Source: Armatimonas rosea
GTDB taxonomy: Bacteria; Armatimonadota; Armatimonadia; Armatimonadales; Armatimonadaceae
Length of the DNA stretch: 64,000 nucleotides
Direction of reading: 5' to 3'
Assembly (NCBI RefSeq): GCF_014202505.1
Contig: NZ_JACHGW010000007.1
Span: 124,001-188,000 of the forward strand
The notes beneath the pieces were generated by a model. That model ran no database searches, was not told the DNA's origin, and worked only from the letters and a program-made list of their open reading frames with translations. Both the position numbers and the translations under genes were made by a program. Of the stretch, positions 22,067 to 54,058 are shown piece after piece (position 1 is the first letter of the stretch; each line of letters starts with the position of its first letter).

Positions 22067-22068
22067 TC

Positions 22069-22203
22069 GCCGATTGGAAATTGGCGTCTGCAATGGCGTC
22101 GTTCCTCCGCCGCAAAGCCCGTGCCGGGCTACCGAGCGAATTTTCCAGCCCGGCACGGGCTTTGTGGCCGGAGGTCACTGCAGACGCCGGTTTCCAACCG
22201 GCG
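22069..22203. repeat. Long imperfect inverted repeat (family D hairpin)
   Basis: The left arm (22069-22130) and right arm (22147-22203) flank a 16-base loop. The inner 18 bp, AAAGCCCGTGCCGGGCT with its partner, pair perfectly. Further out, CCTCCGCCG pairs with TGGCCGGAGG, GGCGTCTGCA with TGCAGACGCC, and TTGGAAA with TTTCCAA, with small bulges. It fills nearly the whole gap between two same-strand genes and leaves no room for a normal promoter. It carries no long U-run. Confidence 0.75.
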
Positions 22204-28737: not shown

Positions 28738-28916
28738 AACGAGTCTGGCCGGAACCACAAGGGTTCCGGCTTAAGAGGGCTACGGGCACCTCCGTGCCCA
28801 ACAGATTTTGGTGGCTGCGTCTGGTACTCGGTTGGCTGCGAAGGCAGCCGTCGCCCTCTTAAGCCCGGACACTCGTTGGCCGGGCAAATCTGTCCGGGCC
28901 TACGTTATCCGGGGAT
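28738..28916. repeat. Palindromic repeat family A, two inverted copies head to head
   Basis: The right part (28840-28916) is the reverse complement of the copy at 27311-27409: GGCTGCGAAGGCAGCC, CGCCCTCTTAAG, GCCCGGACACTCGTTGGCCG GGC, then CGTTATCCGGGGA. The left part (28738-28805) is a more diverged copy in the opposite sense: GGCCGGAACC/GGTTCCGGC stem, TTAAGAGGGC, GGGCACCTCCGTGCCC stem, AACAGATTTT. It fills the gap between two convergent genes. Confidence 0.85.
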
Positions 28917-30383: not shown

Positions 30384-32834
30384 TTACCCGATTGGCCCGG
30401 CGAAGCGCTCCGCCCAGGTGAGCATCTCCCAGAGGGTGTGCAGGACGCTCTCGCGGGCGCGGTAGCCGTGGCTCTCGTGGGGGAGCAGCACGAGGCGCGC
30501 GGTCGCGCCGTGGGCTTGGAGCGCCTGGTAGAACCGCTCGGACTGCACCGTGTGGGTCCCGGGGTTGTTGTCGGCTTGGCCGTGGATCAAGAGAAGGGGG
30601 TCCTTGAGCTTATCCGCGTGCGTAAACGGCGAGAGGCGGTGGTAGGTCTCGGCGGCCTCCCAGTACGAGCGGCGCTCGCTCTGGAACCCAAAGGGCGTGA
30701 GGGTGCGGTTGTAGGCTCCGGAGCGGGCGATCCCGGCACGAAACAGTCCCGGTGCATGGGCGAGCAGGTTGGCGGTCATGAAGGCACCGTAGCTGTGCCC
30801 CCCGACCACGACCCTGCCCGGATCGGCGATCCCACGCTCAGCGAGGGTGTCGATGGCAGCCTTCGCCGCTCCGACAATCTGCTCCGCAAACGTATCGTTC
30901 ATGGTCTCGGGGTCGCCGACAATGGGCATCGATGCATCCATCAAGACTGCCCAGCCGCGCAGCAGGAACCAGAGTGGGCTCGTTCCCATGAGCCGTGTGA
31001 AGGTCTTGTCCGAGCCGCGCACCTGCCCCGCCGTGGCCGCATCGCTGTACTCCTCCGGGTAGGCCCAGAGCAAGAGCGGCAGGTTGGGGCGCGAGTCGGG
31101 CGCGATATTCGGCGGTAGGTAGAGCGTCCCCGAGAGCGGCACACCATCGGGGCGCTGGTAGCGCACAAGCTCTTTGTGCAGGCCCGTGACTGCGGGGTGA
31201 GGATCGGTAAAGTGGGTCAGCGCGACCCCGTCCACAAAGAAGTTCGTCGGCTCCGTGCGGCTCTGGCGGCTGGTGAGCAGCTTGTCTCCGATAAAGGCGA
31301 GGAAGCTCTCAAAGCCCGTGTCCCCGCACTGGAAGAGCCGCTCTTTCTCCCCAGTCTCGAGGTCGAACGAATCCAAGAACGGCCGGTCACCGTCGGGGGT
31401 AGCGCCGCGCCCCGCCAGAAAGACCTTGCCGTTGCGGGTATCGAGGACACGCTCTCCGGTGGGCTTCTGGGTCGTGATAAAGCTTCCGGGGTCGCCGTAG
31501 GCATCGTTGACCGAGAGATCAAAGAGGGTGGTGCGCTCCTCCCAGGCTCCCCACGTGAAGTAGTAGGTCGTGCGCCAGCGCCGGTCGCGGTCGTACTCGG
31601 TCACGATGGCTTTGGCGGGATCGTCGGGCCACTCCCACCCCGCAAACCGATGCGTCAGGCGGAACGACTCACTCCCATTTAGCTCGCTCTCATGAACGGG
31701 AGCGTCTTGCTGTCGCTGCGCGACATGAAGGCCTTCGGCCATATTTGGGATGGCCGAAGGCCTTTGTGTCGGAGCCTGCGACGACAGCAAGACGCCCCCC
31801 TCCAACGGGGGCGATGCCTTCGGGGGCAGTATAGTGGCGGTCATTACGCGGTCACGGTGTTCGACTTTGGCGAGCGGGTTGCCGCCATCGAGCGCCTCCA
31901 CCCAGCGCAGGGTCGCCGGGAGGTTGGGCTGCCAGCCGATCCCACGGGGGCCGGTGGGGACGCCCTGCTGTGGCACCTCGTCGGAGATCGGTAGGTCGGC
32001 GATTGTGTGCAGGATCGCTCCTGTTGTGGCGTCCCAGACCTCCACGCGGCGGGCGAAGAGATTGTAGGGGACGCGGTAGGAGAACGGCGGCACGAGGCGT
32101 GTGACCAGAAGGAAGCGGCCATCGGGCGAGGGCCGGGCGCTGGTGGCGAGCACCGGCTCCCCAACCAGCTCCACGTTGGCGGTGCTAAGCGAGTAGGTTG
32201 CGAGCTGAACCGTCGTGAGGTAGGTGAACAGCGCCTCGTCGTGGGGGCTGGTGAGCAGGTCCTGGTAGGTGGCGGCGCGGGTCTGCTTGCCGCTCGCCTC
32301 CTGGACAATCGGCCCCTCGGGTGCGGCCAATGGCTGAGGCATCTCGCCCAAGTCCGCTACAAGCGTGAGCAGAAGCGTGTCGTTATCGATCCACTGGATC
32401 GGCGCGGAGAGCATGTCCGTCAGCGCGAGTTCAGGGACGACCGTTACCGTCGCGGTCGAGACTGTCCCGATTCCCAGCCCAAGTCCGCCGCCCTCACGCT
32501 CCAGAAACAGCGCAAAGCGGCTGCCGTCGTCGCTCCAGACCGGGCTCCCCGGAATTGTCCCCGCGGGCACTCCCGTCACCGTGCGCTCGCTACCATCTGC
32601 CGTGCTCAGGAGAGTCAGGGTGGAGTAGCGTGTGTGCCGCTGCGTCCCCGGGCGAGTCGGGTCAAAGCGCACCCCCGCCAGCTTCTCGTAGGGACGAGCC
32701 AGATCGGCGATGGGCGGATAGGCCTCGTAGCCAATGAGGAGCAGGTGCGAGCGGTCCGGTGAGAGCGTTGAGAGAGGGGTGAGCGGTGCATCGAGCAGGG
32801 CGACGAGCTCGTCACCGGGAGTTTGGTACTGCAT
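30384..32834 (-). CDS. Prolyl oligopeptidase (S9) family protein with an in-frame repeat insertion
   Basis: 816 residues from the ATG at 32834; TACAAT is 9 nt upstream, which argues against the 21-codon longer frame. An N-terminal beta-propeller with PSPDGRFLLVTR-type blades is followed by an alpha/beta hydrolase domain from about 560. The catalytic triad is visible: S681 in GGHSYGAF, D755 in HGQADNNPGT and H789 in HESHGY. It probably cleaves peptides. There is no signal peptide. Residues of about 336-379 (SPPLEGGVLLSSQAPTQRPS and on) are encoded by a palindromic repeat and interrupt the propeller. Confidence 0.9.
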   Translation of the reverse strand: MQYQTPGDELVALLDAPLTPLSTLSPDRSHLLLIGYEAYPPIADLARPYEKLAGVRFDPTRPGTQRHTRYSTLTLLSTADGSERTVTGVPAGTIPGSPVWSDDGSRFALFLEREGGGLGLGIGTVSTATVTVVPELALTDMLSAPIQWIDNDTLLLTLVADLGEMPQPLAAPEGPIVQEASGKQTRAATYQDLLTSPHDEALFTYLTTVQLATYSLSTANVELVGEPVLATSARPSPDGRFLLVTRLVPPFSYRVPYNLFARRVEVWDATTGAILHTIADLPISDEVPQQGVPTGPRGIGWQPNLPATLRWVEALDGGNPLAKVEHRDRVMTATILPPKASPPLEGGVLLSSQAPTQRPSAIPNMAEGLHVAQRQQDAPVHESELNGSESFRLTHRFAGWEWPDDPAKAIVTEYDRDRRWRTTYYFTWGAWEERTTLFDLSVNDAYGDPGSFITTQKPTGERVLDTRNGKVFLAGRGATPDGDRPFLDSFDLETGEKERLFQCGDTGFESFLAFIGDKLLTSRQSRTEPTNFFVDGVALTHFTDPHPAVTGLHKELVRYQRPDGVPLSGTLYLPPNIAPDSRPNLPLLLWAYPEEYSDAATAGQVRGSDKTFTRLMGTSPLWFLLRGWAVLMDASMPIVGDPETMNDTFAEQIVGAAKAAIDTLAERGIADPGRVVVGGHSYGAFMTANLLAHAPGLFRAGIARSGAYNRTLTPFGFQSERRSYWEAAETYHRLSPFTHADKLKDPLLLIHGQADNNPGTHTVQSERFYQALQAHGATARLVLLPHESHGYRARESVLHTLWEMLTWAERFAGPIG
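31698..31828. repeat. Palindromic repeat family B inside the S9 peptidase gene
   Basis: Outer arms GCGTCTTGCTGTCG (31702-31715) and CGACAGCAAGACGC (31782-31795) enclose an inner pair, AAGGCCTTCGGCCA and TGGCCGAAGGCCTT (31751-31764). On the right follow CCCCCCTCCAACGGGGGCG and ATGCCTTCGGGGGC. It shares GTCGCAGGCTCCG-like and ATGGCCGAAGGCCTTTG blocks with 53117-53305. It is open in the peptidase frame. Confidence 0.8.
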
Positions 32835-51103: not shown

Positions 51104-51111
51104 TCTCTTTG

Positions 51112-51479
51112 AGAGTGGGCCTATAAGCCGGGTTCTGTGTTTGTGTGGTCATCTCTCTGGGACGCCCGTTACCGTGCGCCTCATGCGGTCTACCGGGAGG
51201 CTCGGCGAGCCGCGTCAGCACCTCCCTTGACCTTGCTTCGAGTGGGGTTTGCCGGGCCGGTACGTCACCGCACCGCCGGTGCGCTCTTACCACACCATTT
51301 CACCCTTGCCGCCCCCTCCCAAACTCCCCCGCGAGCGGGGGCTGGGGGGGGGCAGGCGGTATCTTTCTGTTGCACTTTCCGTCGGGTCACCCCGCCAGGC
51401 CGTTAGCCTGCACCCTGCCCTATGAAGCCCGGACTTTCCTCAGGAAGCTCACGCCCCCTGCGACCACCCGTCCCACTCC
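51112..51479 (-). ncRNA. rnpB: RNase P RNA (bacterial class A)
   Basis: About 368 nt. It processes the 5' ends of tRNA precursors. From the 5' side: P1 strand GAGTGGGAC, then GAGGAAAGTCCGGGCTTCAT AGGGCAGGGTGC (CR I), GACGGAAAGTGCAACAGAAA GATACCGCC (P10/P11 region), AAGGGTGAAA, GGTAAGAGCGCACC, GCAAACCCCACTCG, then GGTAGACCGCATGAGGC, AGAGAGATGACC, and CAGAACCCGGCTTATAGGCC with the P1 3' strand CCCACTC. All conserved cores are present. The P12 region is occupied by a C/G-rich palindromic repeat. The promoter is TAGAAT at 51487-51492. Confidence 0.95.
51312..51352. repeat. Family C repeat serving as P12 of RNase P RNA
   Basis: In RNA sense: CCCCCCCCAGCCCCC, GCTCGC, GGGGGAGTTTGGGAGGGGGC. The arms match the left half of the family C copies (CCCCCCTAACCCCC type). 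It lies exactly between GATACCGCC and AAGGGTGAAA, where P12 is normally found. Confidence 0.75.
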
Positions 51480-51532: not shown

Positions 51533-52352
51533 CCGCAAAGCTCTCGCGCTCACCGGCCCTAAGCACCGTGTAGGGCTGGCCGATTGCCTCACTGGTCTGG
51601 ATGAACCGCTCGGGTGACTCGGTGTTGAAGGCGAAGAGCTCGTAGTGGCCGGGGATCGCGCACTTGGCCCCGATTGCCTTAGCGAGCCGCGCCGCCTCGT
51701 CGCCCCAGAGGTTGCCGGAGACGCGGCGCTCGGGGAGGCGGCCATTGATCGGGAGAAAAGCAATATCGACCTTGTAGGGCCGCAGAAGCGCCTCCATGCC
51801 ATCGTAGGGAATCGTGTCGCCGCTGTGGTAGAGAGTCCAGGGACCAAGCTGGACGATAAAGCCCGCATAGCAGGGGAGGAGCTCTTCGTGTGCGGCAGGG
51901 ACGGCGGTGAGGCGGATATCGCCGACGGTCGTGCTCGTACCAATCGCCAGCCCGACCACGGGAGCGCTCTCGCCGAGGCGATTCGTGGCAAACGGGAGAT
52001 TCTCGGCGGGGACAACGAGCCGCGTGCTCGGGTTGCTGGCAAAGAGCGGCAGGAGAGTCTGCGCATCCAAGTGGTCGGTGTGGTTGTGGCTACTGGTAAC
52101 GGCGGTGATTCCCGTCAGGCGCTCTGGCGCGACCACGCGCTCTGTCATGCGCGTGTGGGGCTTGTCCGTCGCGGCGTACTTCTCGGTGAGAGAGTCCGAG
52201 AGGTAGGGATCGAGCAGGAGGCGCGTGCCGTTGTAGGCGACCAGGTAGCCGCTCTGCCCAAGCCACCAGACATGGAGAGTGTCTGGCTGGCTCTTGGTTG
52301 CCGCCTCGACATCCGCGAGAAAGGCATCGTCTTGCAGGACGGGCTTAATCAT
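51525..52352 (-). CDS. UlaG-like metallo-beta-lactamase-fold hydrolase
   Basis: 275 residues from the ATG at 52352, which overlaps the upstream stop (ATGA). VWWLGQSGYLVAYNGTRLLL is the first beta hairpin of UlaG-like enzymes. The zinc motif is SSHNHTDHLDA, then VPAAHEE, YHSGDTIPYDGM and IPGHYELFAF. UlaG opens ascorbate-6-phosphate lactone; here the neighbour is a sugar isomerase-like protein, so a sugar lactone is plausible but unproven. The stop codon is contributed by a family C repeat. Confidence 0.82.
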   Translation of the reverse strand: MIKPVLQDDAFLADVEAATKSQPDTLHVWWLGQSGYLVAYNGTRLLLDPYLSDSLTEKYAATDKPHTRMTERVVAPERLTGITAVTSSHNHTDHLDAQTLLPLFASNPSTRLVVPAENLPFATNRLGESAPVVGLAIGTSTTVGDIRLTAVPAAHEELLPCYAGFIVQLGPWTLYHSGDTIPYDGMEALLRPYKVDIAFLPINGRLPERRVSGNLWGDEAARLAKAIGAKCAIPGHYELFAFNTESPERFIQTSEAIGQPYTVLRAGERESFAAP

Positions 52353-53122
52353 CGGGCGGCCAGCCACTCACGGACGCCTTTGGAGTACTGCGGAAACGCA
52401 ATCTCCGGGTCCGCGATCTCCGGGTGCCAGCGCTTCTCCCACTCCAGCGAGATCGCCCCGGTGTAGCCCGCGTCCAGCGCCAGCTCTAGCATCGGGAAGA
52501 CCGGTACGTCACCGTCGCCTAGGAGCGTGTAGCCCTGGCCCGCGATGCCGTCTTTGATGTGGATATGCCGCAGGGTCGGGGCCAGCAGGCGGTGGGTCTC
52601 GCTGGCGGGCTCGCCCTGCCGGAACGGGTGGTGCAGGTCCCAGAGGGAGAAGACCGCCGGGTGCGCCGCCTCAGAAAGAAGCGCGGCCACGGTCTCTCCC
52701 GTGGAGAAGTCGTCGTGGGTCTCCAGCACCAGCGCCACACCGGCGTCTTGGGCGGCGTCGCCGAACGCACGCAGGTTGGTAATTGCCAGCTCGCGGCTCT
52801 CCGGGCGGCCCCCAAAGATGCGCACCAGTGGGCTCCCCAGCGCCTGCGCCAGCTCGCAGTGGCTCTTGACATGATCGAGGTTCCCCTGCGCCACGACCCC
52901 CGACGACGACACGCAGCAGACACTCAGGCCGGCCTCGGTGAAGCGGCGCGCGGTCTCGTGGCGGTTTTCGGGCAGAAAGGGAGCGGCAGTGGGCAGGTCC
53001 ATGCTGTCCAGATAGCCCCGGAGCTCGATGGCATCGTAGCCGAATGCGACAGCGTTGTGGAGGAGTGTCTCCAGGTCCCAGGCTGGGCAGCCCAGGGTGG
53101 AGAACGCAAGCGGATTGTTCAT
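52349..53122 (-). CDS. Sugar phosphate isomerase/epimerase-like TIM-barrel protein
   Basis: 257 residues. FSTLGCPAWDLETLLHNAV, YDAIELRGY, LVRIFGGRPESREL, VALVLETHDDF (metal-ligand Glu), SLWDLHHPF, LRHIHIKDG and AISLEWEKRWHPEI give the full pattern of the xylose-isomerase-like barrel with its metal ligands. The UlaG-like gene follows with a 4 bp overlap, so they form a small sugar operon. TAAAAT lies 6 nt before the ATG. The promoter and start are the mirror image of those of the divergent gene at 53300. Confidence 0.85.
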   Translation of the reverse strand: MNNPLAFSTLGCPAWDLETLLHNAVAFGYDAIELRGYLDSMDLPTAAPFLPENRHETARRFTEAGLSVCCVSSSGVVAQGNLDHVKSHCELAQALGSPLVRIFGGRPESRELAITNLRAFGDAAQDAGVALVLETHDDFSTGETVAALLSEAAHPAVFSLWDLHHPFRQGEPASETHRLLAPTLRHIHIKDGIAGQGYTLLGDGDVPVFPMLELALDAGYTGAISLEWEKRWHPEIADPEIAFPQYSKGVREWLAAR

Positions 53123-53305
53123 GGGAGCATTTTACCCGTTAAGATCGCCTCCGTTGGAGGGAGGCGTCAACGAGCGTCGCAGGCTCCGCTGGGAAGGGCT
53201 TCGCCCATTCGAGAGTCTATGGCCGAAGGCCTTTGCAGCGCGAAGCGCTCGTTGACGCCCCGCTCCAACCGGGGCGATCTTAACGGGTAAAATACTCCCA
53301 TGAAC
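53117..53305. repeat. 189 bp inverted-repeat element (family B) containing two divergent promoters and start codons
   Basis: The outer 33 bp arms (53117-53149 and 53273-53305) are identical except for one base and include TAAAAT, CTCCC and the ATGAAC start of each flanking gene. The next 27 bp (53150-53176 and 53246-53272) match imperfectly (GGCGTCAACGAGCG perfect). The centre has GTCGCAGGCTCCG, GGGCTTCGCCC and ATGGCCGAAGGCCTTTG, also found in the repeat at 31698-31828. Confidence 0.85.
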
Positions 53306-54058
53306 GAGCAAGAGAAGTATTTCTTCGATCTATGGGGATTTATTGTCGTCAAACAGGCACTGACGCCCGAGCACGTCGCAGCCCTCAATGCCCTGGTGGA
53401 CACCAAGCTGGTCGAGGAGAGCGCTACCGAGAAGACAAGCCATCGGTTTGGTCGGGTGCTGGAGTGGGGGACGGAGACACGCGAGACCATCGCCAACCCG
53501 CGCATCGTGCCCTATCTCCATGATCTCATCGGCCCTCGTCCGCGCCTGGACCACGACTATCTCGATGTGATCCTCAAGCCCGGCCTTGGCCCAATTGGCG
53601 CGACCCTCCACGGCGGCGGAACCCCCTTCGATGCCGGCCAGTTCTATCGGTTCTCGGAGGGGCGGATGCACAATGGCCTGACCGTGGTCGCCTACGCGCT
53701 CAAGGACTGCCGGCCTGGCGACGGTGGCTTTGCGTGCATTCCGGGGAGCCACAAGTCCAACTACAGGACGCCGCAGGAGTGGGTCAACATGGCAGACGGT
53801 CTCGCGGAGGTGGTCCGCCCCGTGCCCTGTGAGGCGGGCGATGCCGTGATCTTCACCGAGGCACTGACCCACGGGACACTTCCCTGGAACAGCGATAACC
53901 AGCGCCGGACCCTCTTTCTCAAGTACACCGCCCCGCAGCTCGCCTGGGGTGTCCCCAGCTACGACCCCCATGCCCACCCCGACCTCCCCGACGACGCCCG
54001 CCGGATGCTCGAAGGCCCCAACGCCCGCTACCGTGGCCGCAAGGGTGGGGTAGAGTAG
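53300..54058 (+). CDS. Phytanoyl-CoA dioxygenase family protein
   Basis: 252 residues. It belongs to the Fe(II)/2-oxoglutarate oxygenases. MNEQEKYFFDLWGFIVVKQA is the typical N-terminus. GATLHGGGTPFDAGQFYRF probably carries the first iron ligands; FACIPGSHKSNY, then AVIFTEALTHGTLPWNS with the distal His, and QRRTLFLKY with the 2-oxoglutarate-binding Arg follow. The substrate is unknown. TAAAAT (53288-53293) is 6 nt before the ATG. It is divergent from the sugar isomerase gene through a mirror promoter. Confidence 0.88.
   Translation: MNEQEKYFFDLWGFIVVKQALTPEHVAALNALVDTKLVEESATEKTSHRFGRVLEWGTETRETIANPRIVPYLHDLIGPRPRLDHDYLDVILKPGLGPIGATLHGGGTPFDAGQFYRFSEGRMHNGLTVVAYALKDCRPGDGGFACIPGSHKSNYRTPQEWVNMADGLAEVVRPVPCEAGDAVIFTEALTHGTLPWNSDNQRRTLFLKYTAPQLAWGVPSYDPHAHPDLPDDARRMLEGPNARYRGRKGGVE

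Follow-up and report, generated by a model that had tools for sequence, protein, structure and literature searches.

REPINs, as described in passages of PMC3116915, are doublets of REP sequences that form hairpins and are associated with RAYT transposases; the REP unit is 20-40 bp long and carries a GTAG-type tag. The TIRtron and TIRYT groups have a Y1 transposase set between long terminal inverted repeats that are partly self-complementary, and these repeats also occur as dimers with no transposase between them (passages of PMC3733652 and PMC6006769). A third class, the CGTC REPs, is defined in passages of PMC3733652 by an unpaired CGTC, a stem of 8-9 bp, a loop of 4-5 nt and a CCA-like tail. 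Two other phenomena bear on the locus described here. In quasipalindrome template switching, the imperfect arms of an inverted repeat are made alike by one copying event (passages of PMC8604942), and in the leaderless promoters of Deinococcus-Thermus a -10 motif precedes the start codon by a short, constant distance (passages of PMC12340547).

The window, that is, the whole stretch of 64,000 nucleotides of the Armatimonas rosea genome that was analyzed, contains a 189-bp palindrome between two divergent genes. The features of the locus are these:

52349-53122, minus strand: xylose-isomerase-like TIM-barrel gene (PF01261), 257 aa (ORF and Pfam)
53117-53305, no strand: whole mirror-symmetric region, with 60-nt arms and a 69-nt center (arm alignment and fold)
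53117-53145, minus strand: left mirrored flank, outer module plus the isomerase gene's promoter and first two codons (28/29 identical to the right flank)
53129-53134, minus strand: TAAAAT, a -10 box of leaderless type 6 nt upstream of the isomerase ATG (sequence and class statistics)
53146-53276, no strand: core of the putatively mobile palindromic element, a head-to-head doublet of two family arms (family matches and arm-model matches)
53146-53208, plus strand: left arm, with H1 at 53146-53166, CGTC, H2 and H3 (model R1, 83.7 bits)
53219-53276, minus strand: right arm, with H1 at 53256-53276, CGTC, H2 and H3 (model R1, 75.3 bits)
53277-53305, plus strand: right mirrored flank, outer module plus the PhyH gene's promoter and first two codons (28/29 identical to the left flank)
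53288-53293, plus strand: TAAAAT, a -10 box of leaderless type 6 nt upstream of the PhyH ATG (sequence and class statistics)
53300-54058, plus strand: PhyH gene (phytanoyl-CoA dioxygenase family, PF05721), 252 aa (ORF and Pfam)

The 60-nt arms of the palindrome (53117-53176 and 53246-53305) are 92% complementary, with 5 mismatches. The first-pass annotation of this DNA had described its 33-bp ends as inverted copies with a single difference, and alignment places that one mismatch at position 12; the mirror symmetry continues well inward of these ends. Folded as single-stranded DNA, the 189-nt sequence reaches -84.9 kcal/mol, against a mean of -32.35 for 200 shuffled sequences (z -16.4), none of which folds as well. 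Each TAAAAT box is followed by six bases, (A/G)CTCCC, and then by ATGAAC, an arrangement that had also been reported and is seen on the plus strand from 53288-53293 and on the minus strand from 53134-53129. The start codons of both genes fall within the arms of the palindrome. That both genes begin inside the terminal repeats, as had been claimed, is backed by congener proteins of the same length, with 81% identity over residues 1-257 for the isomerase and 86% identity over residues 1-252 for PhyH. Palindromes are hard to assemble and this locus is known from one assembly only, so an assembly artefact has to be considered; its probability is put at next to nothing, given that the arms disagree at 5 of their 60 positions, that their H2 and H3 alleles differ, and that both ORFs continue intact and have congener orthologues of equal length. 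An Rfam scan of the window gave no match at the palindrome locus. The same scan located a class A bacterial RNase P RNA at 51108-51479 of the minus strand (272 bits), and a further, less regular inverted pair, 71% complementary and with several nested hairpins, lies at 28748-28885.

The inner part of the palindrome belongs to a dispersed repeat family. The 189-bp query gave 83 matches in its own genome, from which 40 distinct places were inspected. The unit common to the copies corresponds to positions 53146-53276 of the window, and some copies add an outer module close to ATC-N-N-AACGGGGGCGAT; the promoter-bearing ends of the window copy lie outside the repeated unit. A strict H1 pattern gave no doublet at 13 of the 40 loci and 27 doublets at the others, with 54 arms, of which 52 were aligned. 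Model R1 was built from these 52 arms, including both window arms, whose own scores therefore follow by construction. With a single-arm covariance model, at least 150 arms were found in the A. rosea genome and 36 in the one congener examined, and none at E 0.001 in 10 further genomes from the family and order. Among the 148 arms listed, 98 form 49 head-to-head doublets, and no other arm orientation occurs within 300 bp. A second doublet of the family lies in the window itself, at 31685-31813, with arms of 81.6 and 45.8 bits. The window also holds a palindromic pair at 22068-22203, with CGTC after the hairpin and a weak arm-model match (25.7 bits); it ends about 15 bp before an ATGAAC and resembles the hairpin beside a congener transposase gene (L073, 819-837).

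Each arm is about 56-64 nt long and consists of three hairpins: H1, which is followed by CGTC, a variable H2, and H3, which has a short loop. The H1 stem is 7 bp and its loop 7 nt, the CG of CGTC is paired, and the H2 stem is 4-5 bp. In the aligned arms, 94.8% of cells are paired as the structure predicts, compared to 81.9% after shuffling, and 95 cells are altered on both sides of a pair in a compensatory manner, compared to 33.0; none of 500 shuffles reaches either value. Pairing falls to 43-50% when partner positions are slid. Further pair types, one of five covariation measures, were not above the shuffles (10 versus 11.1). Within an element, the H1 alleles of the two arms agree in 7 of 27 cases, where the shuffled mean is 5.4 (P 0.27); a concordance test of H3 covered 6 of the 27 elements. 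Because the hairpins covary and the H1 alleles agree no more than by chance, it is the local hairpins that are conserved, rather than arm-to-arm identity. Arm-to-arm copying is thus not routine in the family, and regular homogenization of the arms was rejected on the same count.

The arms also accompany transposase genes. The A. rosea genome has seven matches to Y1_Tnp and the congener four. Two of the seven (loci L075 and L082, both confirmed by Pfam) sit between inverted arms of the family, and a third (L081) is bordered by an arm on one side; the arm model finds nothing at the remaining four. By eye, the transposase translations contain an HUH-like DHVH stretch. Since family arms flank Y1_Tnp genes, the short elements look like non-autonomous versions of a transposase-bearing unit. 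Other hairpin families flank the Y1_Tnp genes at L074, L076 and L077, which belong to A. rosea and its congener, and this suggests one repeat family per transposase. For one copy, at C4:407091-407239, the congener seems to have the corresponding site without the element; the alignment there is loose in the gap, so the comparison supports insertion, short of proof. Y1 transposases are not known to make a target-site duplication. The initial suggestion of a MITE-like element is supported to the extent that there are many dispersed copies and that the same arms flank IS200-like transposase genes. With two IS200-like tyrosine transposase (RAYT) genes flanked by matching arms, the classification of the window element as a non-autonomous, REPIN/TIRtron-type member of a genus-restricted, RAYT-associated palindromic family is well supported.

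The same suggestion had the element carry outward promoters, and this part was not upheld. An outward ATG that opens an ORF of at least 90 codons does lie within 120 bp of 44 of the 98 doublet ends, and the flank of one copy, L002, resembles that of the window copy. The sequences before the ATG vary among copies, however, and 48 of the 49 doublets have no mirrored TAAAAT...ATGAAC end, on which grounds a fixed outward-promoter carrier was rejected and is largely refuted. The search for other copies with such ends, proposed in the first-pass annotation, found mirrored ends in none of the other 48 doublets and a similar end on one side only, at L002. That likeness (score 12) is within the range of unrelated promoters, being equalled by 1 of 70 other leaderless promoters and reached by 0.3% of 2,415 pairs, and a shared origin of the L002 flank was rejected. 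Promoters as a family trait are accordingly given very little credence.

The two predicted promoters of the window copy fit a class found elsewhere in the genome. The promoter sample comprised 464 kb (the window and 20 sampled stretches) and 208 qualifying ORFs, which were taken by a greedy ORF picker and counted only where the first start is ATG. TANNNT with a 6-nt spacer before the ATG precedes 22 of the 208 ORFs, against a mean of 2.1 per spacer, a 10-fold enrichment; among those 22 promoters, G is at -14 in 15, G is at -13 in 13 and C is at -1 in 15. A spacing scan of the sampled promoters gave no clear signal for a -35 box, and a search for a Shine-Dalgarno sequence found no GGAG, GAGG or AGGA upstream of either gene. 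The isomerase and PhyH promoters are both of the TAAAAT-6-ATG leaderless type, and the congener genes have the boxes TATTAT-6-ATG (isomerase) and TACAAT-6-ATG (PhyH). Because the class is enriched in the genome, both promoters fit it and the congener genes do likewise, both messages are probably leaderless. Judging from the sequence, transcription from the two promoters would leave out the hairpin. Promoters of this kind (GG-TAAAAT-6 nt-ATG) seem to serve genes often in A. rosea, and because their recognizable signal is confined to the 15 bp or so nearest the start, an element could sit just upstream without breaking it.

The likeness of the two promoters exceeds what the class explains. They are identical at 26 of 27 positions (-21 to +6), and the 406 pairs among 29 leaderless promoters, a list that includes the isomerase's own promoter and from which the ORF picker left out the PhyH ORF, reach at most 19. 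In a gapped test the two promoters score 20 and the next distinct pair 16; a pair that scores 19 arose because one gene was entered twice, with start codons 3 nt from each other. The identity is therefore not due to chance. Selection for co-regulation could in principle have made two independent promoters alike, and both do fit the leaderless consensus, but such convergence is highly improbable because 26/27 is far above the 19/27 maximum of the 406 pairs and the identity extends to non-consensus positions. Beyond H1, the flanks are mirrored at 28 of 29 positions in the window copy, and the next best of the 49 doublets reaches 22/29, with a runner-up flank that is a repeated family module lacking a start codon. 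The mirrored flank thus has 1 mismatch in 29, compared to 4 in 21 in the adjoining H1, and the symmetry stops exactly after codon 2. From the promoter identity, the uniqueness of the flank among the 49 doublets and the poorer match of H1, we infer that the promoter tract reached the other side in a copying event of its own, distinct from the spread of the family. An inverted duplication of one promoter, which had been put forward alongside the MITE, is by the same reasoning the best reading of the outer 29 bp. Neither upstream region in the congener is close enough to the mirrored sequence to name the donor.

The genes on either side have been rearranged. Comparison with relatives, advised in the first-pass annotation, yielded a congener that lacks the element at both genes, but one in which the isomerase and PhyH genes stand apart, each with its own -10. 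The congener order is pnp, isomerase, esterase, and an outer-membrane-barrel-like gene lies head to head with PhyH. In A. rosea it is the isomerase that faces PhyH head to head, and pnp is followed by the barrel gene and, at a distance of about 17 kb, by the esterase. The isomerase and the barrel gene, which is single copy in A. rosea and in the congener, have swapped places (behind pnp or opposite PhyH) between the two congeners (loci L122 and L048). A single inversion as the model for the swap is weakened by the esterase, the isomerase's neighbor in the congener, which remained on the pnp contig about 17 kb away. A search of 61 genomes at E 1e-30 gave isomerase matches in 22 and PhyH matches in 14, and among the matches listed, judged from their coordinates, the two genes are adjacent only in A. 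rosea. No ancestor with the isomerase-PhyH order and an unmirrored promoter was found among the genomes searched.

This history would also allow capture at the rearrangement junction. A palindrome with an inverted copy of the PhyH promoter and ATGAAC would have existed first, and the relocated isomerase would afterwards have given up its own start through an in-frame fusion to this palindrome at codon 3. Such a capture would account for the isomerase lying elsewhere, behind pnp, in the congener, for the end of the symmetry exactly after codon 2, and for codon 2 of the isomerase being Thr in the congener and Asn in A. rosea. It demands an exact in-frame join, however, and Asn is also present at codon 2 in isomerase homologues of other genera, so that ATGAAC may be native. 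Capture is considered unlikely, although it keeps more weight than selection or an artefact.

The explanation that is favored, with fair rather than high confidence, is that an element copy came to lie between the rearranged genes and that one template switch then copied one leaderless promoter and its ATGAAC across. The RAYT-associated palindromic element would probably be moved in trans by an IS200-like Y1 transposase that acts on single-stranded hairpins. Rearrangement would have brought the isomerase and PhyH genes head to head with a copy between them. DNA synthesis would then have switched template once across the palindrome: the strand would have folded back on its arm, and the polymerase would have used the flank of one arm as the template for that of the other. 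The tract carried from gene to gene would comprise the outer module, -10 box, spacer, ATG and second codon, and the outcome would be two divergent genes with nearly identical core promoters. Since H1, though inside the palindrome, escaped copying (4/21 mismatches), the switch cannot have extended beyond the flank. This requirement speaks against the reading, as do the finding that the family's arms are not routinely copied from each other, the failure to find an ancestor with an unmirrored promoter among the genomes searched, and congener upstream regions that point to no donor. A template switch in a palindrome seems the simplest known mechanism for such a copied tract.

Because a leaderless promoter and its start codon fit in less than 30 bp, one foldback switch could move a complete expression signal. 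More generally, and quite tentatively, a mobile palindrome may serve as a promoter copier, in which one foldback switch transplants an expression signal and start codon onto a newly arrived gene to give a symmetric bidirectional promoter. If the template-switch reading is true, mobile hairpins can copy entire leaderless promoters and so change how genes are wired, and paired regulation has a simple route. The titles and abstract openings of the literature searched mention no element with a promoter and start codon mirrored in its arms. Likewise, no description of REPIN or TIRtron elements in Armatimonadota was found in the literature searched, from which PMC10558695, a paper that contains both "RAYT" and "Armatimonadota", was left aside.

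In comparison with known systems, the element works like a REPIN or a TIRtron: it is a doublet, it forms hairpins and its arms accompany a transposase gene, and it lacks a GTAG tag, GGGGWSAS and the strict form of a CGTC REP. Like the REPINs in the passages of PMC3116915, it consists of two palindromic units in inverted orientation, separated by a short spacer; its copies are numerous and scattered, the units also neighbor a transposase gene, and compensatory changes occur. It differs in having arms of about 60 nt with three hairpins and no GTAG, and in that excision was not seen. Like TIRtrons and TIRYT elements, it has long, partly self-complementary inverted repeats that flank a Y1 transposase and that occur as dimers without one. 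GGGGWSAS, which passages of PMC3733652 report for part of the TIRtron group, is absent on comparison by eye, the arm end in the copies inspected being GGGGCGAT; the sequence is family-specific, and the passages searched in PMC3733652 and PMC6006769 do not mention Armatimonadota. The quasipalindrome switches in the passages of PMC8604942 have in common with this locus that imperfect inverted-repeat arms are made alike by one copying event, although here the tract would include a promoter and start codon. The fixed short spacing of a -10 motif before the start codon recalls the leaderless promoters in the passages of PMC12340547, though here the class is in Armatimonadota and is recognized from sequence statistics. 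With the CGTC-tagged REPs in the passages of PMC3733652, the family shares CGTC beside a small palindrome and head-to-head dimers, but its stem, loop and tail differ, and the CG of the tag is paired in H1. The survey in PMC3733652 did not find transposase genes flanked by CGTC-tagged REPs, whereas here such genes are flanked. The family therefore ties a hairpin-plus-CGTC unit to a tyrosine transposase, although it falls outside the strict CGTC-REP definition given there.
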